Shown here one piece after another: positions 42,992 through 62,883 of a stretch of DNA of 64,000 nucleotides (its first letter is position 1; each line of letters starts with the position of its first letter). This DNA comes from Ruegeria sp. PrR005 (GTDB lineage: Bacteria; Pseudomonadota; Alphaproteobacteria; Rhodobacterales; Rhodobacteraceae): contig NZ_JAAGOX010000053.1 of NCBI RefSeq assembly GCF_010500245.1, positions 186,001 to 250,000 on the forward strand. Reading direction: 5' to 3'. A program made the translations under genes and the position numbers. Under the pieces are notes generated by a model. The model was not told where the DNA came from, ran no database searches, and was given only the letters and a program-made list of their open reading frames with translations.

Positions 42992-43299
42992 CCTGCGGAT
43001 TTTGGGAAAAAAGGTGTTTTTCACGGCTGGGTGGGAAGGTTTGATCGGCTATAGGGATAGCGGACGATAGAACCGAACGCGTGGGATGGTGGAAACAATT
43101 CCAAAGCCATGAATGCTGCAAGGGCTTTTTAGGCTCAGCTTTTATTAGGCACTCACGGATAAACGAGCCAGCAGCGTTTTTTTACGCTTGCCTCCAGCGA
43201 AGAGCACGAGGCGACAATAGGGCCGTTACCAGCGTGTGCCAGGTGTTTGATCCCATGATTTGATGGTGTGATCCATACGCCGGAATGACAGGAAGCATT
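42992..43299. other. AT-richer non-coding stretch before IS remnant
   Basis: About 310 bp with no convincing gene, visibly AT-richer than 42 kb. It contains AGCGT-T6-ACGCT at 43173-43188. The last 34 bases (from about 43266, TGTGATCCATACGCCGGAAT) look like the left end and leader of the IS481-type element. Confidence 0.45.
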
Positions 43300-43760
43300 A
43301 TGGGATAAATTCGTCATGGCAGCGGCACGACTACGCTCGCAGTCCGAGCTGCGATACAGCGATCACAGGCTTCTACCGTGGTGCTGAGCCGGGAACTCGG
43401 GATCGATCCAAAGACTGTGTCGAAGGGGCTCGAGCGCGAGACGGTCGAGGATCGCAAAGTGGGGCCGAAGGAACCGCGCCCGACCGTTCTCAGCGCGGCC
43501 GAGGAGGCGAGGGTGTTTGCATTCCGTCGGCACACACTGCTGACTTTGGACGACTGTCTCTATGTTCTTCAGCCTTCGATCCCGCCCCTGACGCGTTCAG
43601 CGTTGCCTTCAGCGACTACATGGCAGCGTACAACATCGCACGCAGGCTCGAAACGCTTAGCGGCCTCACGCCGTACGAGTACACTTGCAAAATCTCGACT
43701 TCAGATCCAGATCGACTCATCCTCAATCCGATCCACCAGATGCCTCGTAGCGTAATTTGA
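43300..43760 (+). pseudogene. IS481-family transposase, internally deleted and frameshifted
   Basis: The reading starts at ATG 43300 but meets TAA at codon 3. It then gives HGSGTTTLAVRAAIQRSQ, SVEDRK-type VEDRKVGPKEPRPTVLSAAE and FRRHTLLTLDDCLYVLQPSI in one frame to about 43600. From about 43600, in another frame, it gives DYMAAYNIARRLETLSGL, TPYEYTCKIS and RLILNPIHQMP, the family's C-terminus. The DDE catalytic core between them is gone. TTCAGCG occurs twice, 12 bp apart, at the junction. Confidence 0.85.
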
Positions 43761-43806
43761 TGCACCGCGTCGCGCTTGAACTCGTCGCTGTAACTGCTTG
43801 TACCGG
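43747..43806 (-). pseudogene. IS3-family OrfA N-terminal fragment
   Basis: About 18 codons read SSYSDEFKRDAVHQITLRG on the minus strand, the usual N-terminus of IS3-group OrfA helix-turn-helix proteins. The reading then runs into the IS481 remnant in antisense. Confidence 0.7.
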
Positions 43807-44088
43807 CCTTCAATCTTGCACCACTATGTCGTCGACAGTAGTGCGCAAGCGACTCCAAACTGAAGTTTTCCTTTTTTGTAACCTGTTTGTATCCCCGGGA
43901 GAGTCGCACATCAGGGCAGAGCACTCCATCCAGGCAAGATTTCGGCATAAGAATGATTATGTTAACCTGGATCGTCGCTGGATTACAGTTGGAATCCGCA
44001 TTGGGCACTTTGTTCGGCTGTGCGACCCGACGCCGTCACTCGCGCCGCCCGCCGGGAGAAACCGAGAGCGTGGTCCGGTTGGGCGTGG
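43807..44088. other. non-coding stretch right of IS remnant
   Basis: About 280 bp without a supported gene. Nothing beyond scattered AT-rich runs; probably degraded element or the edge of the adjoining accessory block. Confidence 0.4.
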
Positions 44089-44670
44089 TCAATCGTCTCC
44101 TTTATAGTATCCGATCACATCGCTCTCGGTGGTCGCTCCAAGCCCATTCAGCAACCGGTTCGAGTAGTTGAAATACGCACAGACCTGATTGACCTCCAGG
44201 ATTTCCCCGTCGTCGCATCCGGCGATCTTCAAGGCTTCGAAATCGGATTTGACCATCTTTCCGACAGAAGTTGTCAGTTTCCCGGCGTACCGCAGCAAGG
44301 CAAGTTCCTTGCCCGAAAACTCCTCTTCCGGGCGGTGCGCTTTGAGAGCCAGAAATATCCGATCGGATCGTTTCTGATCTCGCAGCAAGTTCCGCACATT
44401 CATGAAATGATGCGTCAGCGAATAGGTGCAGTCGTTCAGGATCGATGTGTAGCTTGCGACCACTTCCAGGAACCAGAACGGCAGCACGTTGTCTTTCGAA
44501 TGAAGCACTGAGCGATACAGTGTCACGTGCCCGTTCATCGTTTCCGGTCTGAGTGAATGCACCCGCATGACGGTGTCGACCGTCCCGTGCGGCGTGCGCG
44601 CGTTGTCCAGCATCTCCTTAAGCCGACCATCTGCCTGCTCGTCCGGAACCATTTCAATCCACGCACTCAT
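44089..44670 (-). CDS. AhpD/carboxymuconolactone-decarboxylase-family (peroxidase-related) protein with a degenerate CxxC
   Basis: 193 aa from the ATG at 44670. The family core reads VVASYTSILNDCTYSLTHHF: the first redox Cys and the His are kept but the second Cys of CxxCxxxH is Ser. The C-half (FEALKIAGCDDGEILEVNQV, YFNYSNRLLNGLG) is typical of uncharacterised peroxidase-related members. It is divergent from the M29-like gene, first in the accessory block. A peroxidase role is doubtful without the CxxC. Confidence 0.7.
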   Translation of the reverse strand: MSAWIEMVPDEQADGRLKEMLDNARTPHGTVDTVMRVHSLRPETMNGHVTLYRSVLHSKDNVLPFWFLEVVASYTSILNDCTYSLTHHFMNVRNLLRDQKRSDRIFLALKAHRPEEEFSGKELALLRYAGKLTTSVGKMVKSDFEALKIAGCDDGEILEVNQVCAYFNYSNRLLNGLGATTESDVIGYYKGDD

Positions 44671-44816
44671 GATTTCACTCCTCCAGTTGCAGTTACAGGA
44701 TATGAGGCAAATCACCCTAATTCACAGTAGAATTTTCAACTGAGGAGAAATTTGTCTAGGAACGACCGCCGGCGCGAGAGTATGATGGAACCGATCTCGC
44801 AACGCGGTGGGAATAC

Positions 44817-45923
44817 ATGTCGGAAGAAAGACTTCGGGCTGGAGCAGAGAACCTTTTGCGCAATTGCAGCGGTCTGAACCCAGGGGATCACCTTTTGATT
44901 CTTCAGGAAGACGCCGACAACGGATATTACGACGCCGACCTCGCCGCCGTCATTGCGGGTTGCGCCAAAACAATGGGCATCGGGACCGAGCTTAGAACGG
45001 CGCCTTTCGATCCCTTGGGGTCGGTCTTGCCGACAGGCATTCAGACGGCCATGGCGGCCGCTGATCGGACCTTGTTCCTGTCACGCAGTGGCGACCAGAT
45101 CAGGTTCAGCGAGGAGATGCGCGAAACACGGCCTATCGTTGCCTATGTCCTGGATACAGAGATGCTGGCGTCAAGGTTTGGTGCCGCGCATTACAGTGGC
45201 TTTGTGCAGATCAAGGATGCCGTGAACACGCTGTTGGCGAATGCACGGACAATCCGTGTGACTTGCCCGTTGGGAACGGATTTCAGCGGACCGGGGGCCA
45301 ACTTTCCCGACAAAGGAATAACAGACGTCGCAATCACCCGGTTCCCGATGTCAGTTTTTGCTCCCGTCCCAGTTACCGGGTTTTCCGGCGTGATTGTACA
45401 GGATGGGTTTCTGGTGGGGACGGGATCCAAGTTTTACAAACCCTACGGCTGCCAACTGAACTCCCCTGTCGAAATTCACTTCAGAGACACCAAACTCGAG
45501 GGCTTTAGGGGCGAGCCCGAGGATGTCCAGCGCGCAACGATGCATTTTCGCCGCGTCGGAGAACAATTCGGGCTGGATCCCATGACGGTTCATTCCTGGC
45601 ATGCGGGAATTCACCCGGGCTGCTTCTACACCAGACCGGCTGCCGAAAATTTCGAACGGTGGAGCGGCAGTGCCTTCGGGAATCCGCGGTTGCTGCATTT
45701 CCATACATGCGGAGACTATGCCCCCGGAGAGATTTCCCTGAATGTACTGGATCCGACCATCGAGGTTGACGGGGATAAGATATGGGATGTGGGCGTTTTC
45801 CACGTTTCCCGTGTTCCCGGCGGAGCAGAGATCCTGGAACGTTACCCGTGTATCCGCGCGACATTCGACAACCCGGAAACGCAGGTCGGTCAGGGGCCGA
45901 CAGGGCGGCTTTCAGTCCTTTGA
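44817..45923 (+). CDS. M29 aminopeptidase-like / NicX-like metal-dependent protein, unknown substrate
   Basis: 368 aa from the ATG at 44817. TCPLGTDFSGPGANFPDKG, HSWHAGIHPGCFYTRP and LLHFHTCGDYAPGEIS resemble the clan of leucyl aminopeptidase T (M29) and 2,5-dihydroxypyridine dioxygenase NicX, with several His and acidic residues that could bind metal. The stop is 7 bp from the Rieske gene's stop, convergent. I cannot tell hydrolase from ring-cleaving dioxygenase by eye. Confidence 0.5.
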   Translation: MSEERLRAGAENLLRNCSGLNPGDHLLILQEDADNGYYDADLAAVIAGCAKTMGIGTELRTAPFDPLGSVLPTGIQTAMAAADRTLFLSRSGDQIRFSEEMRETRPIVAYVLDTEMLASRFGAAHYSGFVQIKDAVNTLLANARTIRVTCPLGTDFSGPGANFPDKGITDVAITRFPMSVFAPVPVTGFSGVIVQDGFLVGTGSKFYKPYGCQLNSPVEIHFRDTKLEGFRGEPEDVQRATMHFRRVGEQFGLDPMTVHSWHAGIHPGCFYTRPAAENFERWSGSAFGNPRLLHFHTCGDYAPGEISLNVLDPTIEVDGDKIWDVGVFHVSRVPGGAEILERYPCIRATFDNPETQVGQGPTGRLSVL

Positions 45924-45930
45924 CAAGGTC

Positions 45931-46986
45931 TCAGTCGGCAGAGGTTTCCGATCTGATCTGACGGGCCACCCGGGTGCGAAAACGCATTGCGCCGGCGTCC
46001 AGGCCAAGATTGATATAGCCGGACTTGCGGTTCGCCATGCCTGTTTGAACGTGCTCCAGAACTTCCTTGTCCTCATTGAACGCCATCGTCGCGCCTTCGA
46101 ACATCCGTTGCGAGAGCTGATGATCCTCTGCATGCATATTGCGGTGCTGAAACCAGAAATACCGGGACTGGCGCGCATTTACAGGGGTTATGAAATTGTA
46201 GGAAATGTTCACAAAGGCATTGGGAGAGACCGGCCTCTGCGCGCCGCCCTCTCCCGCAGGGGTATAGACCGACATGTTGATCGCGGTGGATGGCAGGCGA
46301 CATTCATAGTGCTGTTTGCGGTCGCAGGTGGGGCCAAAGGGCAGCATGGCTTTGTAGTACGGTGGCGGCTCCTCGCCCAGAACCCAGCGCGAGACGATAA
46401 CACCGTTCTCGATCTCCTCCAGATCCAGGGGCCGGTTATCGGTTCCCGCCCCCGCGAATGACGAAAGATGAACCCAGGCCACATGGCTCGGGTCGAGAAG
46501 ATTGTCGATTATGTAGAGGTAGTGACAAGCCATCTCCATGGCGCCTTTCGGCGTCTTGCCCCAGTCAGGATTGTCGAAGTTGGGGATGTCCAGAATTTCG
46601 TCTCTGTCCGCCTTGTCCGGGTCACCCATCCACAGCCACAGGAAACCCCACCTGTCTTCGGCGGGATAGGAATGAACAGCGGCGCGCCGCGGAGGATTGT
46701 CGAGCTGGGTCGGGGCAATGACACATTCGCCGGTACAATCGAAGGTCAGGCCGTGATACCCGCAGACCACGTTGTCACCTTCGACAGAGCCGCGCGACAG
46801 GGGCAACTTGCGATGCGGACAGGCGTCCTCCAACGCAATTGCATTGCCATTGGTGTCCCGAAAGATCGCGATTTGCTCTTCCAGAATGGTGACTGCGCTC
46901 AACGTCCGCCCAAAGTCCTCGCTGCGTCCGGCGACATACCAGCTGTTTCGCAGGAAACCTTCCGCTCCGATCAGGTCAGGCCGCAT
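45931..46986 (-). CDS. Rieske aromatic-ring oxygenase, VanA-like
   Basis: 351 aa from the ATG at 46986 (AAGGGGTG upstream; a GTG two codons earlier is less likely). The Rieske cluster is CPHR with CGYHG 17 residues on. The catalytic domain has IIDNLLDPSHVAWVH, with the mononuclear Fe His pair. This resembles vanillate O-demethylase oxygenases, which demethylate or hydroxylate aromatic carboxylates. No VanB-type reductase is nearby. It is last in an operon with an ABC transporter, so its substrate is probably imported by it. Confidence 0.8.
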   Translation of the reverse strand: MRPDLIGAEGFLRNSWYVAGRSEDFGRTLSAVTILEEQIAIFRDTNGNAIALEDACPHRKLPLSRGSVEGDNVVCGYHGLTFDCTGECVIAPTQLDNPPRRAAVHSYPAEDRWGFLWLWMGDPDKADRDEILDIPNFDNPDWGKTPKGAMEMACHYLYIIDNLLDPSHVAWVHLSSFAGAGTDNRPLDLEEIENGVIVSRWVLGEEPPPYYKAMLPFGPTCDRKQHYECRLPSTAINMSVYTPAGEGGAQRPVSPNAFVNISYNFITPVNARQSRYFWFQHRNMHAEDHQLSQRMFEGATMAFNEDKEVLEHVQTGMANRKSGYINLGLDAGAMRFRTRVARQIRSETSAD

Positions 46987-46995
46987 ATTCACCCC

Positions 46996-47331
46996 TTACG
47001 CAGAAAAAACATCAAACGCCTTCAGCGCCTTGGCGCTATAGGCATACGAGGGCCCACCCCCCATGTAGGTGGCCATCGCCAGGGCCTCGCACATCTCGGC
47101 CCGGGTCGCGCCAAGACGGACGAGCGAACGGACGTGAAAACCGATACAACTGTCGCATCGGGTCGCAATAGCAATCCCCAGCGCGATGAATTCCTTTGTC
47201 TTTTCGCTCAAGGCGCCATCGGTCTTGGCCGCCTTGCCCATGATGCCGAAACCGCGAACGGTTTCCGGTACCTCTTTCGAATAGGCCGCGATATCGCCTT
47301 CGATTTCGGTCATGAAGGTTTTCCAGTCCAT
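46996..47331 (-). CDS. AhpD-like carboxymuconolactone-decarboxylase-family protein
   Basis: 111 aa from the ATG at 47331, with GGAGGAGAG upstream. An intact CDSCIGFH (CxxCxxxH) motif marks an AhpD-type thiol protein. LGATRAEMCEALAMATYMGGG is typical. It lies 9 bp before the Rieske gene and 11 bp after the permease. Function in the operon unknown. Confidence 0.8.
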   Translation of the reverse strand: MDWKTFMTEIEGDIAAYSKEVPETVRGFGIMGKAAKTDGALSEKTKEFIALGIAIATRCDSCIGFHVRSLVRLGATRAEMCEALAMATYMGGGPSYAYSAKALKAFDVFSA

Positions 47332-47342
47332 GCCTCTCCTCC

Positions 47343-48104
47343 TCACCCCCGTTCGTCCGAGCCCATGCGCCGCTCCAGCCAGCGCACACCGGCGCTGATG
47401 ATCAGGACCAGTACAAGGTATTCAAGGATCAGCAGGGTATAGATTTCCAAGGGTCGGTATTCGGTAACCACCAGTTCATTGGCGCGGCGGGTCAGTTCCT
47501 GCATGCCGATGACGCTGGCAAAGGCGCTCATCTTGACGATGTAGATGAACTGGTTGGCCAGCGGCGGCAGAATGCGCCGGATCGCCTGTGGCAGGATCAC
47601 GTAGCGCATGGTCTGGAGGTAGTTCAGACCGATGGTCTGCGCCGCTTCGGTCTGACCCTTGGCGATCGACTGAATGCCGGCGCGATAGATCTCGGCTGTG
47701 AACGCACTGTCGGACAGAGCCAGCGTAATGACCGCCCCCCAAAACGGATCAATCGGGATGTTCAATCCCATCTCGCGGAAAATGATCGGCAGCCCGTAGA
47801 ACACCCAGAACAGCATGGGCAACAGGGGGATGGAGCGGATGAACTCCACATAGACCCGGTTGACCAGCCTCCAGCCGCGTTTCTTGGACAATCCCGGCAG
47901 GGCAACGACAAGGCCCACCACGATGGACAGAACCGCCGCGATAACCGAGATCAGAATGGTGTCGCCCATGCCCGAGATCAGGAACTTGATATTGATCCAG
48001 CCCCCCGGCGTCATCGGATTGATGACGTACCAGCCCCAGGTCGAGGAACTGGAACATCCCGAAAGCGCCAGAATGGGAAGTGCGAGAAGCAGGAGTTTCT
48101 TCAT
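47343..48104 (-). CDS. amino-acid-type ABC transporter permease
   Basis: 253 aa from the ATG at 48104. Opens with a lipoprotein-like MKKLLLLALPILALSGCSSS, then WGWYVINPMTPGGW, and HisM/GlnP-type membrane segments with the coupling loop GQTEAAQTIGLNYLQTMRYV. One permease gene only, so it probably works as a homodimer. 13 bp after the ATPase gene. Confidence 0.88.
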   Translation of the reverse strand: MKKLLLLALPILALSGCSSSSTWGWYVINPMTPGGWINIKFLISGMGDTILISVIAAVLSIVVGLVVALPGLSKKRGWRLVNRVYVEFIRSIPLLPMLFWVFYGLPIIFREMGLNIPIDPFWGAVITLALSDSAFTAEIYRAGIQSIAKGQTEAAQTIGLNYLQTMRYVILPQAIRRILPPLANQFIYIVKMSAFASVIGMQELTRRANELVVTEYRPLEIYTLLILEYLVLVLIISAGVRWLERRMGSDERG

Positions 48105-48117
48105 CAACCCTCGCGCC

Positions 48118-48879
48118 TCAATGCTGCAATATCTGTGACAGGAACTTCTGACAGCGGGGGGAACGCGGCGCCCCGAAAAACTCCTCTGGTGACCCCTGCT
48201 CGACGATCTCGCCCGCGTCCATGAACACCATCTGATCGGCCACCTTTCGGGCAAAACCCATCTCATGCGTAACCACCACCATGGTCATGCCCTCTTCGGC
48301 CAGCGTTACCATGACATCGAGAACCTCAGAGATCATTTCCGGGTCCAGCGCCGAGGTCGGTTCGTCAAACAGAAGCACCTTGGGTTCCATGCACAGCGAC
48401 CGTGCAATGGCCACCCGCTGCTGCTGGCCTCCGGACAACTGGCCGGGGCGCTTGCGGGCCTGCTCCGGGATATGCACCCTTTCGAGATAGTGCATCGCGC
48501 GCGCCTCGGCCTCTGACCGGGTCATGCCGCGTGCCTTGATCGGGCCAAGCGTCAGGTTTTCAAGAACCGTCAGGTGCGGGAACAGGTTGAACTGCTGGAA
48601 CACCATGCCAACCTCAGAGCGGATGGCCGCCACAGATTTCGGATCGTTGGTCAATTCCACCCCGTCGACGCGAATCGTCCCCTCCTGATGCTCCTCCAGC
48701 CGGTTGATGCAGCGCACCACGGTCGACTTGCCCGACCCCGACGGCCCACAGATCACGACTTTTTCACCCAGACCGACAGACAAGTCGATATTCTTAAGAA
48801 CATGGAAGGTTCCGAACCACTTGTTCACACCCTTGAGTTCGATCGCTTGTGTTGATCGGGGCTGGATTTGGGCGGACAT
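48118..48879 (-). CDS. amino-acid-type ABC transporter ATP-binding protein
   Basis: 253 aa. Walker [10 protein letters not shown], signature [15 protein letters not shown], Walker [16 protein letters not shown]. GlnQ/HisP type. First gene of the operon ATPase-permease-AhpD-Rieske. The binding protein is divergent across 112 bp. Confidence 0.92.
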
Positions 48880-48947
48880 TTTTCTTCCTGGGAAATATTT
48901 TTCTTGAGGTTAGCGGTGTGCTTGCCCTTAAATCAAGTATCAAATCC

Positions 48948-48961
48948 ACTGGTTTTCCAGT
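48948..48961. promoter_or_regulatory. candidate operator in the divergent ABC spacer
   Basis: ACTGG-TTTT-CCAGT, perfect 5-bp arms, about 30 bp before the binding-protein gene. Could be bound by the XRE-cupin regulator encoded nearby. Confidence 0.3.
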
Positions 48962-48991
48962 CAGGAATAGAACCACTAACGGGAGATACCT

Positions 48992-49762
48992 ATGAATAGC
49001 TTTCTAAAGGCCATAGCGATTGCCGCTGTCGGCGTGGTGCTGTCGACCGCGGCACAGGCGCAATCGGCGCTGAACGACATCTTGGACAACGGGGTTCTCA
49101 AGGTCGGCACAACCGGCGACTGGAACCCGATGACGCTGCGCGACCCTGCGACCAACAGCTACAAGGGCTATGACATCGACATCATGAACGAATTGGCCAA
49201 GGACCTGGGTGTCGAGGTCGAGTTCGTTCCGACCGACTGGAAGACATTGGTCAATGGCGTGGTCGCCGGACAGTATCACATTACCGGCTCGGCTTCGATC
49301 TCACCGCCCCGTATGAAGGTTGCGGGCTTCTCGGAAAGCTACATCGCCGTCGAGATCTTCCCCTTCACCACCAAGGACAAGGCCGACAAATTCTCGGGCT
49401 ATGACTCGATCAACCAACCCGGCGTGAAGGTCGCCACAACCCTTGGCACCACGTTTGAAAAACTGGTGCGGGAATGGTTCCCCAACGCCGACATCAAAGT
49501 GGTCGAAGCGCCCGCACGCGGATATCAGGAGGTTCTGGCCGGCCGTGCCGATGTTTTCGTGACGTCGAACATCGAAGGGTCCACGCTGGAGGCCAAATTC
49601 CCTGTCGTGCGCGTACCCAATGCCGAACCCCGCGCGCCCTCGCCCATCGCCATGATCCTGCCTCAGGACGATCAGGTCTGGATCAACTACGTGAACAACT
49701 GGGTAAAGGTGAAAGCGGCCCAGGGTTTCTTTGAAGAGAACCGCAAGAAATGGGGTCTTTAA
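48992..49762 (+). CDS. periplasmic solute-binding protein, amino-acid family (SBP family 3)
   Basis: 256 aa. Signal peptide to AQAQS, then NGVLKVGTTGDWNPMTLRD, GYDIDIMNELAKDLGVEVEF and ASISPPRMKVAGFS. Its layout also resembles periplasmic cyclohexadienyl dehydratase (PheC), which shares the fold. With the divergent ATPase and permease, uptake is the better reading. The ligand may be a small aromatic or amino-carboxylate. Confidence 0.85.
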   Translation: MNSFLKAIAIAAVGVVLSTAAQAQSALNDILDNGVLKVGTTGDWNPMTLRDPATNSYKGYDIDIMNELAKDLGVEVEFVPTDWKTLVNGVVAGQYHITGSASISPPRMKVAGFSESYIAVEIFPFTTKDKADKFSGYDSINQPGVKVATTLGTTFEKLVREWFPNADIKVVEAPARGYQEVLAGRADVFVTSNIEGSTLEAKFPVVRVPNAEPRAPSPIAMILPQDDQVWINYVNNWVKVKAAQGFFEENRKKWGL

Positions 49763-49776
49763 GCTCCTGACCGGGT

Positions 49777-49793
49777 GGCCGCCTTTGGCGGCC
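49777..49793. terminator. hairpin between convergent binding-protein and XRE-cupin genes
   Basis: GGCCGCC-TTT-GGCGGCC, 7-bp perfect stem, 14 bp after the binding-protein stop and just before the end of the XRE-cupin gene. No T-run. Confidence 0.5.
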
Positions 49794-49800
49794 GCTTCCC

Positions 49801-50409
49801 TCAGACGTCGTTCGAAACTGCCTTGGTCACCAGGGTAATGAAACTGACCCTGTCCGTCTTGAGCTCAACCGGCCCATGCGCATTGCTTGATTCAAAGCTG
49901 ATACTGTCCCCCGGTTTCATGTGGTATTTGGCTTCTCCGCACTGGAACACCATTTCACCACTGGTGACATGCATGAACTCCAACCCCCGGTGCCGGTAGA
50001 GCGGGCGCGGTTTCAGTGGCTTTTCAAGCGTGACACTGAAGCTTTCAAAACAGACATGACTTGCCTCGGCCCGTCCGATCATCTTGTAGGTATGACCAAA
50101 ACCACTTCCCAGCCTCTGCACGGTCACCCCTTCGCCCGCCGCGACAAAGGAAACATCCGAATGCTCAACCGTTCCGGCAAAGAAGTTGATCAGCGGAACT
50201 CCGATGCCGCCAGCTAGCGCCGCCAGGGTCCCCAACGAGGCGGAAACCTGGCCGCGCTCAATCTTGGATATCATGGCCGTGGACACACCAGAGCGTGTCG
50301 ACAGTTCGGCCAACGTCAACCCGCCCAGCATCCGGTGCGTCTTGACTGTCGCTCCTACAACCTGGTCCAGCGCAGGTTTCTCGATATCCAGCGGCGGTGA
50401 ATCTTCCAT
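49801..50409 (-). CDS. XRE-family regulator with cupin sensor domain
   Basis: 202 aa. HTH at about 20-75 (LTLAELSTRSGVSTAMISKI), cupin at about 125-190 (HRGLEFMHVTSGEMVFQ, MKPGDSISFES). It is divergent from the creatininase-family gene with 78 bp between them. It is the only regulator inside the 44-51 kb block, so it probably controls the block. Confidence 0.88.
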   Translation of the reverse strand: MEDSPPLDIEKPALDQVVGATVKTHRMLGGLTLAELSTRSGVSTAMISKIERGQVSASLGTLAALAGGIGVPLINFFAGTVEHSDVSFVAAGEGVTVQRLGSGFGHTYKMIGRAEASHVCFESFSVTLEKPLKPRPLYRHRGLEFMHVTSGEMVFQCGEAKYHMKPGDSISFESSNAHGPVELKTDRVSFITLVTKAVSNDV

Positions 50410-50430
50410 ACCGACAGGTTATTATGCTCT

Positions 50431-50449
50431 AGCGCAAAGGGAAAGCGCT
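50431..50449. promoter_or_regulatory. candidate XRE-cupin operator
   Basis: AGCGC-N9-GCGCT (spacer AAAGGGAAA), 21 bp upstream of the XRE-cupin start, in the divergent spacer with the creatininase-family gene. Inferred autoregulatory site. Confidence 0.3.
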
Positions 50450-50487
50450 CTGCCACCACAGGTGTCCGTCGTCAAAAGGAGAGGGGA

Positions 50488-51228
50488 ATGCAGCTGTCCC
50501 ACATGACCTGGCAACAGGTCGAGACATGCCTGAAAAAGGGTGCCGCTGTCATGGTGCCCGTCGGTTCGACCGAGCAGCATGGCCCAATGGGCCGGATTGG
50601 AACCGACACCATCTGTGCCGAAGCGGTCGCCTTGGCCGCGGCCGAGATTTGCGGCGCGATCGTCGCGCCACCGCTTGCCTATACACCGGCTCCGTTCAAC
50701 ACGGCCTTTCCCGGGACGGTTTCCATGCCCGAGGACCTGTTTCAGGCACATGCCACAGCGGTGTTCCGGGGACTGATGGCGCAAGGGTTTCGCGGAGTCT
50801 ACGTCGTCAACGGCCACGGGGCGAACATTCGGCCATTGGAGAATGTGGCAAGGGACCTGGCACCATCTCCCATCTGCATCCGCAGTTGGTGGGAACCCAC
50901 AGAGGTCAACCGGATGCGCAAAACGCTCTACGGCGATTGGGAAGGGATGCATGCCACCCCATCCGAGATCGCCATCACCCAGGCATTGCTGGGAACGTTA
51001 CCCGCAGGCGAGGCTGCCCTGCCGCCGAAATCGCTGAGTGCCGACTACATCCGGGCGCATGCGGGCGATCGTCACGGTCCGCCAGATGCACACAGGGCCG
51101 AGTTTCCCGATGGCCGGGTCGGATCGCATTCAGCGCTTGCAAATCCCGTGGATGGGGCAAGGCTGCTTGAAAGCGCCGCCCGGGGCATCGCGGTCGAGTT
51201 TGCGGAGTTCCTGAACAGGGTGCGTTGA
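50488..51228 (+). CDS. creatininase-family metal-dependent amidohydrolase
   Basis: 246 aa. Metal-site motifs in order: GSTEQHGP, GTDTICAEA, NGHGANIRP and the acidic residue in GMHATPSEIA. The family opens cyclic amides (creatinine) and includes other C-N hydrolases such as MftE. The substrate is not readable. Placed in the accessory block, it may act on a lactam formed in the pathway. Confidence 0.85.
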   Translation: MQLSHMTWQQVETCLKKGAAVMVPVGSTEQHGPMGRIGTDTICAEAVALAAAEICGAIVAPPLAYTPAPFNTAFPGTVSMPEDLFQAHATAVFRGLMAQGFRGVYVVNGHGANIRPLENVARDLAPSPICIRSWWEPTEVNRMRKTLYGDWEGMHATPSEIAITQALLGTLPAGEAALPPKSLSADYIRAHAGDRHGPPDAHRAEFPDGRVGSHSALANPVDGARLLESAARGIAVEFAEFLNRVR

Positions 51229-51248
51229 ATATCCCTTGGACAACGAAA

Positions 51249-51280
51249 AGAGGCCAGCAAACGTATTGCTGGCCTCTCTT
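51249..51280. terminator. bidirectional terminator between creatininase-family gene and katG
   Basis: AGAGGCCAGCAA and TTGCTGGCCTCT form a perfect 12-bp stem with loop ACGTA, followed by CTTTA. It is 20 bp after the plus-strand stop and 39 bp from the katG end. On the minus strand the stem is followed by TTTTCG. Confidence 0.88.
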
Positions 51281-51318
51281 TACATCCCTCGGCCGAAGGA
51301 TCGACCGATGACTACGGT

Positions 51319-53604
<2,286 letters not shown>

Positions 53605-53734
53605 TCAGGCTATCAAGTTGGATTGATCGGATTAAGTTCTATTTTCTGATACTTTCGATAATTTTACCCTATGACAAGTTTCATAGGTCCCGCGGCCCCG
53701 TCATCACCCACGGCCCAGCCTATCCAAAGCGGGT

Positions 53735-55387
53735 TTATGCGGCTGCCGGGCGGCCCGCATTGTCTTCGATCACCATCCGGGCCGCCCGGGCCGCCAGCAT
53801 CATCGTGGGCGCATTGGTGTTGCCTGATGTGACATTTGGAAACGCCGAGGCGTCGATGACACGAAGCCGCCCGATCCCATGTACCCGCAACCGATTGTCC
53901 GTTACGGACACGTCCGGCCCGACACCCATGCGGCATGTACAACTGGCATGGAAAACGGTCCCTGCGCGCTGTCGGAAATTCTCCAGCAAGGCATTGTCAT
54001 CCATCCCCAGAATGTCCGGGTCGCGCCGGGCGCGGGTCACTTGCCGCATTGTCGGCGATTGCGCCAGTTGTTGGAGCAAATGGCTGGCTGCAACGGCAGT
54101 TTGCTGGTCTTCCGAGGTGGAAAGTGAATTGGGTTGGATGCGCGGTGCATCTGTTGGATCGGCTGACCTCAGTGTGATCCAGCCCCGGCTGGTTGGCCGA
54201 CAGGGTTGAACGCATAAAAGGAATCCGTTGTCGCGGTCGACGCGCGGCGCCCCGTCCGGCAGGGTCGCATAGGTCGCAGGGTTGCAATACACCTGAACAT
54301 CCGGGAAAGATGCGCCGCTGGTCCGCAGATACCCGCTCACCTGATTGACGGGAACAGACAGGGGCCCGCCGCGCGTCAGCAGATATTGCACGCCGGCGCG
54401 CAGCTGCCCTGTTCGTCGCCCTAAGATACCGTTCAGCGTCGCCTCGTTAGCCCAGTAATAGTGGGACACAGCCAGGTGATCCTGTAACCCCCGCCCGACA
54501 TGCGGATGGTCCAGGGTCACAGCGATACCGAGGGCCCTGAGATCGGCGGCGGGACCGATCCCCGACAACATCAGCAGCTTGGGCGAGTCGATTGCCCCTG
54601 CGCACAGCATCACCTCGCGCCGCGCGGTAGTTTCCCGGACCTCGCCGTTCAGCCGATAGCGGACCCCGGTCGCCAATTTCCCTTGTGTCAGAATACGTTC
54701 GACGCGCGCACCACTGACCACGGACAGGTTGTGCCGCTTAGTTGCCGGCCGCAGGAACGCGTCGGCGGCGGACCATCGGCGTCCGTTCCGGACCGTGGCG
54801 CGCATGTACCCCATCCCTTCGTTCGGATGATGGTTCTGACCCGTTGGTGCGCTGCCGTTGAGATCCTCAAGAATAGGCCAATGCAGATCGCGGGCGGCGT
54901 CCAGGAAGTGGCGGCTGAAGGGGGACATCGCGTTCTTCAGATCGCTTACTACAACCGGGCCGGAGCCGCGCGAGGTTCCATCCGCTTCGACAACGGTTTC
55001 CAGCGCGTCATAGGTTTCCTGAACGGTTTTCCAGTCCCAGCCCGTTGCGCCGGCTTTGGCCCAATCGTCAAAATCATGCGGCAGGCCACGCATGTATGCC
55101 ATCGCGTTGATCGACGAAGACCCGCCGATCACCTTGCCGCGCGGCCAGTATCCGGTCCGTCCGCCAAGGCCCGGATCAGGTTCGGCCTGGTATTTCCAGT
55201 TCACCCGGGCATCGGAAAAAGTCAGGCCGTAACCCATTGGCATCTTAACGGAAAATCTCTCATCGCTACCCCCTGCCTCGATCACCTGCACGGTAAAACG
55301 GCCGCATTCGGACAGTCGGTCGGCCAGAACACAGCCCGCCGAACCGGCGCCGACAATGATGAAATCGAATTCAGGCGCCTTGGTCAT
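53735..55387 (-). CDS. GMC-family FAD oxidoreductase (choline dehydrogenase-like)
   Basis: 550 aa from the ATG at 55387. FAD fold DFIIVGAGSAGCVLADRLSE, the YWPRGKVIGGSSSINAMAYM signature, and the catalytic His in FHASCTCRMG, then DASAFPNVTSGNTNAPTMM. It oxidises an alcohol; substrate unknown. Divergent from a LysR regulator, which begins 103 bp away. Confidence 0.9.
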   Translation of the reverse strand: MTKAPEFDFIIVGAGSAGCVLADRLSECGRFTVQVIEAGGSDERFSVKMPMGYGLTFSDARVNWKYQAEPDPGLGGRTGYWPRGKVIGGSSSINAMAYMRGLPHDFDDWAKAGATGWDWKTVQETYDALETVVEADGTSRGSGPVVVSDLKNAMSPFSRHFLDAARDLHWPILEDLNGSAPTGQNHHPNEGMGYMRATVRNGRRWSAADAFLRPATKRHNLSVVSGARVERILTQGKLATGVRYRLNGEVRETTARREVMLCAGAIDSPKLLMLSGIGPAADLRALGIAVTLDHPHVGRGLQDHLAVSHYYWANEATLNGILGRRTGQLRAGVQYLLTRGGPLSVPVNQVSGYLRTSGASFPDVQVYCNPATYATLPDGAPRVDRDNGFLLCVQPCRPTSRGWITLRSADPTDAPRIQPNSLSTSEDQQTAVAASHLLQQLAQSPTMRQVTRARRDPDILGMDDNALLENFRQRAGTVFHASCTCRMGVGPDVSVTDNRLRVHGIGRLRVIDASAFPNVTSGNTNAPTMMLAARAARMVIEDNAGRPAAA

Positions 55388-55490
55388 GGTCGGTCTTTCC
55401 GCGATTTGTCCGAGCAATTTCCGAGGGAAAAATGGACAAATCAAACGATGTGTTTTACGCCTGAGGCGAAACCAGGATTGAAGCTGACCC

Positions 55491-56387
55491 ATGCCCTCCC
55501 TGCCCCATGTCACATGGCTCAAGTCCTTCGAAGCCGCGGCGCGGCATAGCAGTTTTTCCTCTGCGGCAGCGGAGCTGAACCTGACGCCGGCGGCCGTGAG
55601 TCAGCAAATTCGCCTTTTGGAACAACATCTTAAATCGCAACTTTTCCAACGCCTGCCACGTGGAGTCAAGCTGACAGATATAGGGCAGGCCTATGCCCAG
55701 ACGATCCGGAAGAGCTTTGATGAGATGGCGGTCGCGACCGACGGGTTGTTCGGCAAGCAACGCAAGCGAGAGGTCCGTGTGCGCGCCGCGATCTCAAGTG
55801 CCACGCTGGTCATCGCGCCGCGCTTGGCCGCGTTCCAGACCGCACATCCGGACATAATTGTCCGTTTTGTAACCTCGATCTGGGCCGATCGGTTCGATTT
55901 GTACAATCTCGATCTCGATATCCGCTGGGGTCTGGGAACCTGGGACGAACCGCTGGTTCAGCATCTGGGCCACGAATCCGCGGTGCCGGTCTGCCATCCC
56001 GACTTTGCCGCCGCCCTGGGCGGGGCGCCGGATGTCGCGACGCTGGCCCGGTCACAGGTGGTGCAGATCATCGGCTCGGAGACCGACTGGCGCAAACTAT
56101 CGGACCTGCATGGGCTGGATCTGGATCCGACGGCCGATTGGATGTACGCCGACAGTTCGCTGAGCGCGCTTCAAATCGTCAGCGCGGGCACCGGAGTGAC
56201 CATGGTGCTGGAGAGCTTTGCCCGCCCCTATCTGGAGCGGGGCGAACTGATCGTTCCGGTCGAGTGCAAACTGCCCAAACGCCGGGCGCACTATCTGGTG
56301 ACCCGCGACGAGGCGGCCCAGCGTGACGAAGTGCGACAGTTCGCGGTTTGGGTCACCGGGCTTTATCGCGAGTTGTTGTCGGAATAG
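55491..56387 (+). CDS. LysR-family regulator (GcvA-like)
   Basis: 298 aa. HTH VTWLKSFEAAARHSSFSSAA with LTPAAVSQQIRLLEQHL. The effector domain has the DLDIRWGLGTWD segment typical of GcvA-like members. Probably controls the divergent GMC oxidoreductase gene. Confidence 0.9.
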   Translation: MPSLPHVTWLKSFEAAARHSSFSSAAAELNLTPAAVSQQIRLLEQHLKSQLFQRLPRGVKLTDIGQAYAQTIRKSFDEMAVATDGLFGKQRKREVRVRAAISSATLVIAPRLAAFQTAHPDIIVRFVTSIWADRFDLYNLDLDIRWGLGTWDEPLVQHLGHESAVPVCHPDFAAALGGAPDVATLARSQVVQIIGSETDWRKLSDLHGLDLDPTADWMYADSSLSALQIVSAGTGVTMVLESFARPYLERGELIVPVECKLPKRRAHYLVTRDEAAQRDEVRQFAVWVTGLYRELLSE

Positions 56388-56739
56388 GGCGAAAACCGGC
56401 AATCCGGGTCAAATGCACCGATGACACTTGCGTTGACTGGGCGGTTGAAGAATGGATTTTCGAGTGGGGTACAGGCGGTGTACCCGTCAGCTGAGACCTC
56501 GGCAGCGACCGCTTTGTCGTTGTCATGTTATCAGGCGTTTGGGCACTTGGTGATGGCTGGTAAGGGGTTCACCAGTTCAAAGCCGTTCCGATTTTCATCA
56601 GCTTTTAAGGCTCTGGACCCTTTGATTGTGTTGCAGTCGTTGCTGGGTGGTGATCCAAACGCCTGAACGTCAGCCTGCCGAAATTGATTCCGATCGCTGC
56701 TGAAACCTGACTACCAAGATGGAGCAACCCGTTTCAGCA
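56388..56739. other. intergenic stretch, no supported gene
   Basis: About 350 bp between the LysR gene and the convergent Na+/Pi transporter gene. A frame of 81 codons at 56421-56666 is open but has no ribosome site and no family likeness. A GGGTAC/GTACCC inverted repeat lies near 56466. AT-richer than the neighbours. Confidence 0.45.
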
Positions 56740-58479
56740 TTACCGTGATGTAACCACTTCGCTCTCACTAACGCTGCTGGGGCTGCTCTCGGTTTGCAGC
56801 GCCGGTATCTCGAGCTGTTCCGATACATTCTGGATCAAGCGAGTTTCGAGTAATTGCCCATTCTGATAGAGAATCGGATAGGCAATGGAAGCGATATGGC
56901 TGTTGAATTCCCGAAAAGCCCGCAAGGTCTCCAGATGTATATCGCTGGTCTCGAAGCTTTCGGTTGTGCCATGTTGCAACCGGCGCAGGTGGCGTTTGCG
57001 ACTATCCCGCTCGATGCGCTTGATTTCCGCCTTTTCCAGAGTCAGGAGCCGCGCGCTTGCCAAATCGTCGGAAATGAGCACGTTCGATGCCAGTTTCATG
57101 TTAGCAAGAACCCCTTCGTGCATTTGAGTAAGTTCTGTCCAACCCTCTCCGGAGAAACTCAGACGCTTTGCACGCATTTCCCTTGCCAATTCGGTCAGGC
57201 GCTTGGCGACCACGTCGCCCGCCGTTTCCAGGCGGATCGCAAACTCCATAAGGTCACGTGCGGTTTTTGCATCTTGTTTTTCATATCGATCCGTGGGGAT
57301 TGCCGCAACAAATGCACGAATACCCGACAGGCACCGGTTTACGTCCTCATCCATGGCCTGAACCGAACGAATCTGTTCCTTGTCACCGCTGCGGTACAGT
57401 TCGAGGGCAGGACGGAACATGGTTTCGACAAGGTCGCTCATTCGCAGCAATTCACGCTTGAGGCTCGGCAAGGCCTGACTGGGGTTTGCGACATTCTCCA
57501 TGACCAATGCACTGGCTGGTCGTGCGGGCTGCGTTTTCTGTTCCCTTACCTCATCTGGAAAGAGCTTTTTGAAGACGCCCTGCAAACGTCCGCAAAACGG
57601 AAGGGCAAGGAGCAGCAGCGAAAGGTTGAACGCGAGGTGCGCATTGATCAGCATCTGGCCCCCTTGCGGGTCACCCAAAAGCCCGGTCCGCAGGGTCAGG
57701 TTTGCAGCGAACAAGGTCACCACAGCCCAGCTGCCACGCAGCGCCAGATTGGCATAGGGTATGCGCCGGCCGGAAACGGGCATCCCCCGGGTCAGCCAGA
57801 CCGGAATGAAGGTCGAGCCGAAATTCGCGCCCAAGACCAATGACATTCCAGCGGCAAATGGGATCGCACCGATCTGCACAAGCGTCACGCACATCAGGAT
57901 GGCCGCGACCGAGGAGTGCATGACAAAAGCCAGCGCCGCTCCGACAAGAAAAGCCGTGATGTAATCCCGGGCCAGATAATCGGCCACGGCAGGCAAGAAC
58001 GCACTGTCGCGGATGGGGTCCATCGCCTCGCGCAGGAACTGGAGCGAAATCAGGATGAAAGCCACACCCATAAGAATGCGACCAAGCTGCCGCCCTTTCT
58101 TGCTTTCGGTCTTGACGAACAAATAGCCGCCGACTGCCAGCAGCATCGGTACCAGCCAGTCCAGCCGGAAGGACAGGATCTGGATGATCAACGCCGATCC
58201 CAGATCGCCGCCCAGCACGATCGCCAAACCGGTGGGAAAACTCAAAATTCCAGTCGCGGCAAATCCCGAGGACAACAGCGCCACAGCTGCCGAGCTTTGC
58301 AATACGACAGCCATCATCAAACCTACCACAGACGCTTGCAGGTAACCGCGTTGGCGGGTCATCACCCGCTGGAACGACGCGCCATAGCTACGTTCTATTC
58401 CGGTGCGGACCATGCGCACCGCGTAGAGCAGTAACATGGTTGCCCCGGCCAGTTTGATCAGGAAAGCGACAATGGCCAT
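56740..58479 (-). CDS. Na+/phosphate cotransporter-family protein with C-terminal PhoU-like domain
   Basis: 579 aa. The N-half has paired NaPi repeats: VVLQSSAAVALLSSGFAATG with GGDLGSALIIQ, and MHSSVAAILMCVTLVQIGAI with GANFGSTFIPVW, both carrying the QSS/SS transport motif. The C-half (about 350-550) is a helical PhoU-like domain (LKRELLRMSDLVETMFRPAL). E. coli YjbB, of like design, exports Pi. It lies next to phosphonate catabolism on the same strand, 215 bp after pbfA, so export of released Pi is a good guess. Confidence 0.87.
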   Translation of the reverse strand: MAIVAFLIKLAGATMLLLYAVRMVRTGIERSYGASFQRVMTRQRGYLQASVVGLMMAVVLQSSAAVALLSSGFAATGILSFPTGLAIVLGGDLGSALIIQILSFRLDWLVPMLLAVGGYLFVKTESKKGRQLGRILMGVAFILISLQFLREAMDPIRDSAFLPAVADYLARDYITAFLVGAALAFVMHSSVAAILMCVTLVQIGAIPFAAGMSLVLGANFGSTFIPVWLTRGMPVSGRRIPYANLALRGSWAVVTLFAANLTLRTGLLGDPQGGQMLINAHLAFNLSLLLLALPFCGRLQGVFKKLFPDEVREQKTQPARPASALVMENVANPSQALPSLKRELLRMSDLVETMFRPALELYRSGDKEQIRSVQAMDEDVNRCLSGIRAFVAAIPTDRYEKQDAKTARDLMEFAIRLETAGDVVAKRLTELAREMRAKRLSFSGEGWTELTQMHEGVLANMKLASNVLISDDLASARLLTLEKAEIKRIERDSRKRHLRRLQHGTTESFETSDIHLETLRAFREFNSHIASIAYPILYQNGQLLETRLIQNVSEQLEIPALQTESSPSSVSESEVVTSR

Positions 58480-58694
58480 GTTTCACTCCGGTTTCGTCGT
58501 TGGCTTGGTTGACCGTTGTTCCGGTACGAAAGTTTGCAAGCAGGGCGGGCAACTCCGACAACGGCAACAACAGAGACGGTTCCGGTCGGTTTCGCCGTAA
58601 CCTATCGCTTTGTTCCGTTGTCTCTGCTGCCAGACCTTGTGGGAGTTGAAGCCCCGCACTGTTTCATGCCGTTCGGTCAATGAAGTCAGGCTGG

Positions 58695-60047
58695 TCAGGT
58701 TTCGTCCTTGATTGCAGCAACAACAATGTCGATCGCCTGGTCCAACTCGGCTTTCGAAATTGTCAGCGGTGGTGACAGCGTCAACACGCACCCCTGGCTG
58801 ATCTTGTAGCTCAATCCCGCTTCCAGACAGGCATAGTAGATCCGTTCGGCCCGCGCATTTCCCGGCGTTTTTTCAGCGCGATCATCGACGATTTCGATCC
58901 CGAACATCAGGCCTCTTCCACGGATGTCACCAACGATGGGAACGTTCCGTAATTCCTCCATCAGGCGCCCCATGGCGTGCTCGCCCAGTTCGACCGAGTG
59001 GTCAACCAACCCCTCATCCTCGATGATCTGGATTGTCGTCAGCGCGGCCCGGGCCGTGACGGGGTTCTTTTCATGCGTGTAATGCCCAATGGCAAAATCT
59101 CCGCAAACATCGAGTTGTCTACGAGCGACACAGGCGGCAATGGGCAGGATGCCTCCGCCAAGTGCTTTGCCAAGTGTCACGATGTCTGGGATGATCTCAT
59201 CATGTTCAAACGCGAACATCTTGCCGGTCTTGCCAAGACCGGTCGGAATCTCATCCATGATCAAAAGTGCACCGTGCCTATTGCAGGCCTCTCGCACCGA
59301 TTTCCAGAAGCCCGGCGGCGGCACATAGGGAACTGCGCGCATGGGCTCGGCTATGACCGCCGCAACGTCCCCTTCGCGTTCGAGAACGTAGTCGACCATT
59401 TTCGCGCAGGCCAGCCCGCAGGTTTCAGGGCCCACATGATTGTAGGGGCAGCGATAGCAGGCAAATGGCGCCACATGTTCGGTTCCGGACAACAAGGGTC
59501 CGGCAATGTGACTGCGAAATGTCGCTTCTCCGCCGACGCTTGCCGCGCCGAAACCCGCACCGTGAAACGCGTCCCAGAAGCTGATGGTCTTGAACCGTCC
59601 TGTTGCGGCCCGCGCGATCTTGAGAGCAACTTCGTTGGCATCGGAGCCACCGGTGGTAAAAAGCACTTTTCCAAGGTCGCCGGGCACGATGTCCGCCAGT
59701 TTCTCAGCCAGGTTCACAGCCGGATCATTGGTGAAGCGACGGGGCGCAAAGGGAAGATCGTCAAGCTGAGCCTTGATCGCTGCAACCAGACGGGGATGAC
59801 CGTATCCGATGTGGTGCACCGAGTTGCCATGGAAGTCCATGTACCGGCGCCCTTCCATATCCTCGATCCAGATGCCCTCGGCCTTGGCAATGGTGCTGAC
59901 ACAAGGCGAAGAGAGAGACTGATGCAGGAACACATCTGCGTCGCGTTTCAGCAGGGGTGAAGACTTCGGTCCGACGGACTTTCGCAGCCATGCTTTGCGA
60001 GCTTCGGATGTATTGGATTCCCCTTCAGTATGGACAATCTGTGGCAT
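58695..60047 (-). CDS. pbfA: PLP class III enzyme of phosphonate catabolism, probable 1-hydroxy-2-aminoethylphosphonate ammonia-lyase
   Basis: 450 aa. Fold-type I aminotransferase class III: FTTGGSDANEVALKIARAAT, MDEIPTGLGKTGKMFAFEHD and the PLP lysine in IVTLGKALGGG. A GTEHVAPFACYRCPYNHVG segment with several Cys is unusual for plain aminotransferases. Encoded with phnW-phnA-phnY, it fits PbfA, which turns (R)-1-hydroxy-2-aminoethylphosphonate into phosphonoacetaldehyde and ammonia. Could instead be a true transaminase. Confidence 0.72.
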   Translation of the reverse strand: MPQIVHTEGESNTSEARKAWLRKSVGPKSSPLLKRDADVFLHQSLSSPCVSTIAKAEGIWIEDMEGRRYMDFHGNSVHHIGYGHPRLVAAIKAQLDDLPFAPRRFTNDPAVNLAEKLADIVPGDLGKVLFTTGGSDANEVALKIARAATGRFKTISFWDAFHGAGFGAASVGGEATFRSHIAGPLLSGTEHVAPFACYRCPYNHVGPETCGLACAKMVDYVLEREGDVAAVIAEPMRAVPYVPPPGFWKSVREACNRHGALLIMDEIPTGLGKTGKMFAFEHDEIIPDIVTLGKALGGGILPIAACVARRQLDVCGDFAIGHYTHEKNPVTARAALTTIQIIEDEGLVDHSVELGEHAMGRLMEELRNVPIVGDIRGRGLMFGIEIVDDRAEKTPGNARAERIYYACLEAGLSYKISQGCVLTLSPPLTISKAELDQAIDIVVAAIKDET

Positions 60048-60121
60048 GCCTGCTCCTCTTTGCAGTCATCAAAAATGTGCGGACCCCGGAAGGCCCGCCA
60101 GTACCAGGGAGGAACCGTGAT

Positions 60122-60147
60122 GCCCTTTCCGCCACTGCGGAAAGGGC
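60122..60147. repeat. hairpin between phnY and pbfA
   Basis: GCCCTTTCCGC-CACT-GCGGAAAGGGC, a perfect 11-bp stem with a 4-nt loop, 7 bp after the phnY stop. On the transcribed strand no T-run follows, so partial termination or 3'-end protection is more likely than full termination. Confidence 0.7.
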
Positions 60148-60154
60148 GGAGAGT

Positions 60155-61618: not shown

Positions 61619-61621
61619 GAC

Positions 61622-62866: not shown

Positions 62867-62883
62867 CTTTTTTTCCTTGATAT

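Follow-up and report, generated by a model that had tools for sequence, protein, structure and literature searches.

The window analysed here, a 64,000-nt stretch of the 5.07-Mb genome of Ruegeria sp. PrR005 (contig NZ_JAAGOX010000053.1, positions 186,001–250,000), contains at positions 44089–51228 a block filled by nine genes that combine an ATP-binding cassette (ABC) uptake system and a Rieske oxygenase with several putative catabolic enzymes. A forward-strand gene (44817–45923) encodes a protein of an unnamed family with the predicted fold of NicX, a proposed ring-opening dioxygenase to which we refer as NicX-like. It is followed by a reverse-strand run encoding, in the direction of reading, an ABC ATPase of the polar amino-acid type (48118–48879; GlnQ-like by Pfam, ABC_tran, and by NCBIfam), a permease of the same type with an N-terminal lipobox-like segment (47343–48104; PF00528 (BPD_transp_1), TIGR01726), a carboxymuconolactone decarboxylase or AhpD-like protein with a CxxC motif (AhpD1; 46996–47331; PF02627, 69.6 bits; TIGR00778, 46.9 bits) and the alpha subunit of a VanA_C-type Rieske oxygenase (45931–46986; PF19112, 161.8 bits; PF00355, 75 bits). 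On the outer sides lie, to the left, an AhpD-like ‘peroxidase-related’ protein in which CxxS replaces CxxC (AhpD2; 44089–44670, reverse strand; TIGR01926, 91.6 bits) and, to the right, a periplasmic family-3 solute-binding protein (SBP; 48992–49762, forward strand; SBP_bac_3, PF00497), an XRE-cupin transcription regulator (49801–50409, reverse strand; HTH_3 and Cupin_2) and a creatininase-family amidohydrolase (CREA; 50488–51228, forward strand; PF02633, 160.5 bits). All the genes named in a preliminary description of this DNA are thus present where it placed them, as judged by Pfam, NCBIfam and the open reading frames, and the 9–13-bp spacing that it gave for the four-gene run is exact (13, 11 and 9 bp, measured from ATG starts). 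The divergent gene pairs are separated by intergenic regions at 44671–44816 (between AhpD2 and NicX-like), 48880–48991 and 50410–50487; an operator search in these three regions (17, 26 and 14 loci) returned A/T-rich words only, with the best 8-mer at 47%, 35% and 0%.

This set of genes is no artefact: it recurs in relatives far more often than chance would allow. To score linkage, we used the best 80 of the 243 Rieske relatives found and counted any tblastn match (E ≤ 1e-10, >33% identity, 30% cover), a rule under which the counts for the ATPase, permease, XRE and LysR genes take in non-orthologues; many of the loci end at contig edges. NicX-like accompanies the Rieske gene in 61/80 loci, and in 38 of the 52 whose flanks reach 9 kb or more in each direction. 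The other partners are the ABC ATPase (59/80), AhpD2 (44), AhpD1 and CREA (32 each), an XRE gene (25) and a LysR gene (22), and all nine genes stand together in 12/80 (L057–L061, L064, L066, L068–L070, L072 and L088). Across 295 genomes of the family, the Rieske protein (E ≤ 1e-60) was found in 70 and a NicX-like profile, built mostly from NicX-like proteins beside Rieske genes, in 37, with both present in 36 of those 37 (Fisher p = 1.5e-25, treating genomes as independent, though they are related). Carriers among the named Rieske loci include Ruegeria, Leisingera, Planktomarina and SAR116; the nearest relative of the window locus is that of Ruegeria sp. XHP0148 (L057, NZ_JAOWLB010000007.1), and G031, a genome of the host genus, has the Rieske gene. 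Linkage recurs in varied gene orders and across different orders of bacteria, and that of NicX-like is spread over several of the main Rieske-tree branches, for example those of Ruegeria/Leisingera, SAR116, Aquibium/Hoeflea and Defluviimonas. The members of the set therefore do co-occur elsewhere, and recurrent linkage supports the earlier proposal that uptake system, oxygenase, NicX-fold protein and C–N hydrolase form one catabolic module.

The borders of the block could suggest that unrelated genes came to adjoin by accident or in a single recent transfer: an insertion sequence (IS) remnant lies at the left border, and the G+C content of the block (57.9%) is below that of the left flank (63.5%, window positions 1–43000). 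Against this stand the 36/37 co-occurrence and the linkage across 80 loci, with its varied gene orders, different bacterial orders and several Rieske-tree branches, and, on the searches made here, we rejected such an accidental or transferred neighbourhood as exceedingly improbable. The right flank (51229–64000) has 59.0% G+C, and four relatives that keep this gene order (L057, L060, L070 and L078) show a difference of 0.5–1.2 points between the 5.6–13-kb slice that contains the block and the remainder of the locus. Because these slices differ so little from their own loci, the lower G+C content claimed for the block is mainly a contrast with its left flank, and a recent low-G+C island was rejected as a property of the module. 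Similarly, the IS debris said to border the block is confirmed only on the left side, outside the module, where positions 43241–43744 (forward strand) match IS481-type sequence at 78–81% in blastn (12 matches listed, of 293 records); the match is split in two within a target of some 1 kb, indicating a deleted remnant of an IS481-type element. By eye, an open frame at 43619–44008 (reverse strand) resembles an IS3-type OrfA, with no Pfam match. On the right side there are instead katG, a GMC oxidoreductase and a LysR gene (named by eye), in an order kept in L057.

The NicX-like protein of the window has no NCBIfam family and no meaningful PDB profile match, NicX included, and 25 NicX-like members searched against Pfam gave scattered weak matches, with no shared family and no M29 match; a distant NicX relative from L175 gave nothing informative against the PDB. 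An AlphaFold2 model of high predicted quality (pLDDT 93.4, pTM 0.92) places 2,5-dihydroxypyridine dioxygenase first in Foldseek (E = 5.1e-17), followed by M29 aminopeptidases. VIA-align, in which we left matches with Z < 12 uninterpreted, superimposes the model on NicX of Pseudomonas putida (7cup/7cn3) over 305 residues, most of the protein (Z = 24.4, root-mean-square deviation 3.5, 16% identity). The recurrent neighbours of NicX-like, however, are other genes; none of nicD, nicF and nicE is named among the annotated neighbours, although no search aimed at nic genes was made. Residues invariant in 25 sequences include H262, H266, H294, H296 and E305, and thus comprise an HxH motif. NicX-like is predicted to have the NicX/M29 fold and, having no sequence-level family match, is not filed as a NicX; since a common fold is no proof of a common reaction, we propose, from the model, that it may be a ring-opening dioxygenase.

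Since M29 aminopeptidases have the same fold, NicX-like could instead be an M29-type hydrolase or aminopeptidase in a module for an amino acid in acyl or peptide linkage, anserine being one example. The M29 structures align with Z values of 15–16 (AmpT, 16.4; PepS and aminopeptidase S, about 15.5), and acylase- or peptidase-like genes lie beside one group of Rieske genes (group B, below). NicX is nevertheless closer (24.4 versus 16.4), none of the 25 members matches Pfam M29 and the transporter in the window is of the family-3 amino-acid type rather than the dipeptide type, so that this reading seems improbable. The plain label of M29 aminopeptidase was rejected; the label ‘M29/NicX-like’ that the gene had been given has strong support from the predicted fold and none from the sequence families.

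The Rieske protein has the features of the VanA type, namely a CxH/CxxH Rieske motif, an HxxxxH...D mononuclear iron motif and a VanA_C domain. C58, H60, C77 and H80, together with D167, H170, H175 and D308 (numbered from a GTG at 46992), are invariant in 23 sequences, and we take them to be the iron-site residues. VanA-type O- and N-demethylases share these domains and residues, but the nearest solved relatives, dicamba O-demethylase DdmC (3gb4) and 7qwt, are distant (E = 2.6e-35 and 2.4e-33), and the window protein differs from them in its linkage to NicX-like and AhpD2 and in having no adjoining reductase: no cognate reductase was found among the nine genes of the block. In three loci (L168, L171 and L172), a 2-oxoglutarate (2OG)/Fe(II) oxygenase (Pfam 2OG-FeII_Oxy and DIOX_N) lies between AhpD2 and the XRE or NicX-like gene, and the corresponding genomes (G295, G578 and G625) yielded nothing for the Rieske protein at E ≤ 1e-90. 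In a further locus (L229), such an oxygenase accompanies Sox genes, AhpD2, the SBP, the permease, CREA and a cut glutathione S-transferase (GST) gene. Gene content thus indicates that the oxygenase slot is interchangeable, being occupied by either a Rieske or a 2OG/Fe(II) enzyme. 2OG enzymes are not known to perform cis-dihydroxylation, and their presence in this slot suggests hydroxylation or demethylation instead.

A tree of 91 Rieske sequences, confined to frames of 330–480 amino acids, separates group A (83 sequences) from group B (7 sequences; 48–52% identical) by a fully supported branch; as the tree is midpoint-rooted, with group B inside and long branches meeting, the split is not proof of a clade. 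A 2Fe–2S reductase-like gene directly adjoins the group B Rieske gene in four of the five annotated loci (L186–L189 and L194). Two of these loci (L187 and L194) also hold genes for an aminotransferase, an FAD-linked oxidase, an AspA-like or acylase-type protein, formimidoylglutamate deiminase and a GntR regulator, together with hutI in L187 and S-(hydroxymethyl)glutathione dehydrogenase in L194; L189 has a hisC-like gene. No setting of the histidine utilization (hut) type was seen in L186 or L188. The group B enzyme is a candidate N-demethylase that might feed histidine catabolism. A different setting surrounds the Rieske genes of L081, L082 and L084, with aminotransferase, thiamine pyrophosphate-dependent (TPP) decarboxylase, aldehyde dehydrogenase, P450-like, amidase and NAD-synthase-like genes, and with no NicX-like gene within the flanks.

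Some of the further genes linked to the module in relatives point to N-methylated compounds. Among the 80 Rieske loci, SoxA lies beside 10, a DoeB/AspA-like hydrolase (scoring under the DoeB cut-off) beside 10, an amidohydrolase-2 beside 19, a GST beside 10, a fatty acid (FA)-desaturase-like protein beside 7 and a MocE-like ferredoxin beside 8. The full-length Rieske-linked SoxA proteins are 60–75% identical to that of L102, whereas the partial protein of L136 reaches 51% and the two host copies 43%. One block, in Paracoccus seriniphilus, comprises purU, SoxG, SoxA, SoxD, SoxB, GST, NicX-like, LysR, Rieske and AhpD2 genes and, beyond these, a two-permease ABC system, a 2Fe–2S protein, RidA and a DoeB-like gene; Pfam confirmed its PurU, its SoxD and the folate domain of its SoxA. 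PurU and a folate-binding Sox enzyme would together meet the needs of burning the methyl group of an N-methyl amino acid, and their linkage in some relatives favours N-methylation of the substrate.

These genes are also what one might expect if the module were the pathway already described for homarine (N-methylpicolinate), the hom operon, or a variant of it. A NicX-type cut between C5 and C6 would convert a 5-hydroxylated N-methylpicolinate into a five-carbon N-formyl-N-methyl amino diacid with a glutamate skeleton, and later deformylation and reduction would yield N-methylglutamate, the substrate of N-methylglutamate dehydrogenase (Mgd). Mgd is reported to take part in homarine catabolism (PMC13390433), and a glutamate-skeleton product of the NicX-type cut agrees with that role. 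The occurrence of Sox-type demethylases and of GST, RidA and acylases next to Rieske and NicX-like genes in some relatives, the marine carriers, including Ruegeria, Leisingera, Planktomarina and SAR116, and the NicX fold all fit homarine as well. The abstract on the hom operon (homABCDER; Ferrer-Gonzalez et al. 2026, Nat Microbiol) reportedly names SAR11 carriers. NicX-like was found in 0/187 genomes of a streamlined family, f98 (73 of them with ≥90% completeness and little contamination), in a search that had no positive control; we take this family to be SAR11, and identity with a SAR11-type operon is weakened only. The linkage to hut genes described below also goes unexplained by homarine. 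The hom operon would resemble the module in its marine carriers and in ending in N-methylglutamate and a Sox-type demethylase. In the open-licence literature, we found no paper on homABCDER, on a Rieske gene with a creatininase, on the five-term gene set or on hut with Rieske genes, and what was retrieved for Rieske enzymes with homarine or with methylhistidine appeared, from its entries, unrelated. That the module is this pathway or a variant of it is possible, if doubtful.

Genes of the hut pathway occur within the flanks of 15/80 Rieske loci, in about eight arrangements, against a chance expectation of about 1/80 (a rough estimate, from (20 + 7 kb)/4.2 Mb per operon), and they also lie beside NicX-like in L170, L171 and L173. 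The substrate could accordingly be histidine-derived (N-methylhistidine, hercynine or a related imidazole betaine), with the Rieske enzyme demethylating or hydroxylating it and the product entering the hut pathway. The formimidoylglutamate deiminase genes of L187 and L194 and the hisC-like gene of L189 fit such a route, as do trimethylamine-methyltransferase-family and FAD genes near L192 and L193, and creatininase acts on an imidazolone ring. A NicX-fold ring opener would, on the other hand, be superfluous if the hut pathway opened the ring, and the binding protein has no amine-holding Asp, which counts against free, though not against trimethylated, histidines. The urocanate hydratase (hutU) genes of the host lie outside the window, on other contigs (C54 and C32). 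Of these two genes (C54:67849–69486 and C32:183276–184898), one stands in a full hut operon, and around the other no further hut gene was matched over some 9 kb. A Rieske-based route for N-methylhistidine was dropped, as the one work on this compound found cited (in PMC11432326) is quoted for histidine ammonia-lyase activity on it rather than for a Rieske enzyme. On balance, we regard a histidine-derived substrate as rather unlikely.

Family-3 amino-acid binders hold the carboxylate of an amino acid with an Arg and its α-ammonium group with an Asp. The nearest solved relative of the window SBP in a PDB search is 5kkw (E = 1.1e-73), deposited as a cyclohexadienyl dehydratase and presumably Pu1068 of Pelagibacter ubique. 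W83 and R107 are unvarying in 72/72 aligned sequences (the window counted twice, and two binding proteins from three loci), and the Asp site is occupied by Ser in 70 of them and by Ala in the other 2; Asp stands there in the solved relatives u84322 and u89053, and Ser in 5kkw, as in the window protein. The Arg of an L-α-amino-acid binder is thus invariant and its Asp replaced, and the ligand is likely to have a carboxylate and no free primary amine. Of the preliminary assignment to a nitrogen-containing ring or an aromatic amino-acid derivative, the ring is favoured by the NicX fold, whereas the pocket makes an ordinary amino acid less likely. The window SBP adjoins its own ATPase and permease, and its relatives occur in 26/385 genomes of the class, some merely 1.2–1.4 Mb in size. 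In two of three loci of family f98 (L219 and L220; alphaproteobacterial genomes of 1.2–1.3 Mb), SoxB, SoxA and a frame of 185–187 amino acids precede an SBP and permease, with a MATE-like gene adjoining, a setting that provides a lead to the ligand of the 5kkw-type protein. The N terminus of the window permease carries a lipoprotein-type signal with a Cys (LSGC, then WGWYV), which would be unusual if lipidated. This lipobox pattern is present in 63/70 sequences (some genomes counted twice); of the seven misses, six (in three streamlined genomes) read LTSC by eye, unlike that of L075.

AhpD2 lies below the Pfam CMD cut-off (17.6 versus 23 bits) and above that of TIGR01926 (91.6 versus 81.8 bits). 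Of the CxxC plus His site of AhpD peroxidases, it retains C80 and has S83 in place of the second Cys, both invariant in 14 sequences (numbered from 44667); AhpD1 has the CxxC motif (CDSC). CREA is covered over most of its length by PF02633, the family of creatininase, MftE and IolN, but scores under the NCBIfam cut-offs for all three (82.5 bits against a cut-off of 235 for the creatininase equivalog), making it a member of the superfamily only; we propose that it may be an amide hydrolase acting after ring opening. Next to the module, katG (51319–53568) adjoins in the window and in L057, and in Ruegeria THAF33 (L191) katG and a peroxide-response regulator adjoin AhpD2. Such a katG possibly protects against oxygenase-derived peroxide.

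Considered together, the linkage and profile data, the NicX fold, the invariance of the Rieske residues, the 2OG enzymes in the oxygenase slot, the Sox/PurU blocks, the SBP pocket and the Sox genes beside the SBP in L219 and L220 lead us to read the block as a module for the catabolism of an N-heteroaromatic carboxylate, probably N-methylated, by uptake, oxygenation and ring opening, a reading in which we place about even confidence. We infer the reactions, their order and the substrate from gene identities, conservation, predicted fold and linkage. The ABC system would import the N-heteroaromatic carboxylate, and the Rieske enzyme, with an electron donor encoded elsewhere, would place one oxygen onto the ring or remove a methyl group. 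The NicX-fold protein may then open the ring next to its nitrogen in an O2-dependent reaction, and CREA, or acylase-type hydrolases in other genomes, would cut the resulting amide. AhpD2 and AhpD1 might act on reactive intermediates and, in some relatives, a Sox-type demethylase would move the final N-methyl group onto folate, leaving products that resemble glutamate or aspartate. The module is likely to be regulated by the XRE-cupin protein. Candidate substrates are led by homarine or a close N-methyl heteroaromatic, with histidine-derived betaines next.

Several observations weigh against this reading. NicX-like is absent from 14 of the 52 Rieske loci whose two flanks each reach 9 kb or more, CREA accompanies only 32/80, and SoxA, not found in this window, only 10/80. 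Among the 385 class genomes, NicX-like (E ≤ 1e-40) was found in 10 and the Rieske protein (E ≤ 1e-90) in 6, with both in only three (G000, G294 and G505). The oxygenase, Sox, AhpD2, SBP and CREA genes of L229 occur without NicX-like, and L230 is alike, also without an AhpD2 match; no Sox gene was matched in L218, the third f98 locus. The Fe(II) site of NicX is His–His–Asp with an HxD motif, and the NicX-like family shows HxH. The electron donor was not found, the best match in the host to the group B reductase being a weak one at 30% (E = 2.1e-19), and a pyridine substrate does not obviously explain the hut neighbours in 15/80 loci. Finally, a unit of AhpD1, permease, ATPase/SBP and CREA lies apart from Rieske and NicX-like genes on plasmids of Ruegeria SCSIO 43209 and R. 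conchae, so that the transporter may serve a related compound. The window therefore joins two sub-modules able to live apart, and the earlier suggestion that the imported compound is the oxygenase substrate, although likely here, is not certain.

The locus thus represents a conserved catabolic module whose enzymes are of known kinds, built around a single unnamed family of NicX fold and with an oxygenase slot that can be filled in more than one way; this holds unless the hom operon proves to consist of the same genes. More tentatively, and with appreciably less than even confidence, it may embody an undescribed marine alphaproteobacterial route in which an N-methylated heteroaromatic ring is opened by a new family of NicX-fold dioxygenases after an interchangeable first oxygenase, followed by demethylation onto folate and merging with histidine and glutamate catabolism. 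Through the binding protein, the ligand can be tested directly. If the proposal is true, it would provide a function for a protein family for which we found no Pfam or NCBIfam model and a second solution to ring opening on the NicX fold, and it would point to what bacteria related to Ruegeria, Leisingera, Planktomarina and SAR116 do with an N-methylated metabolite of the sea.

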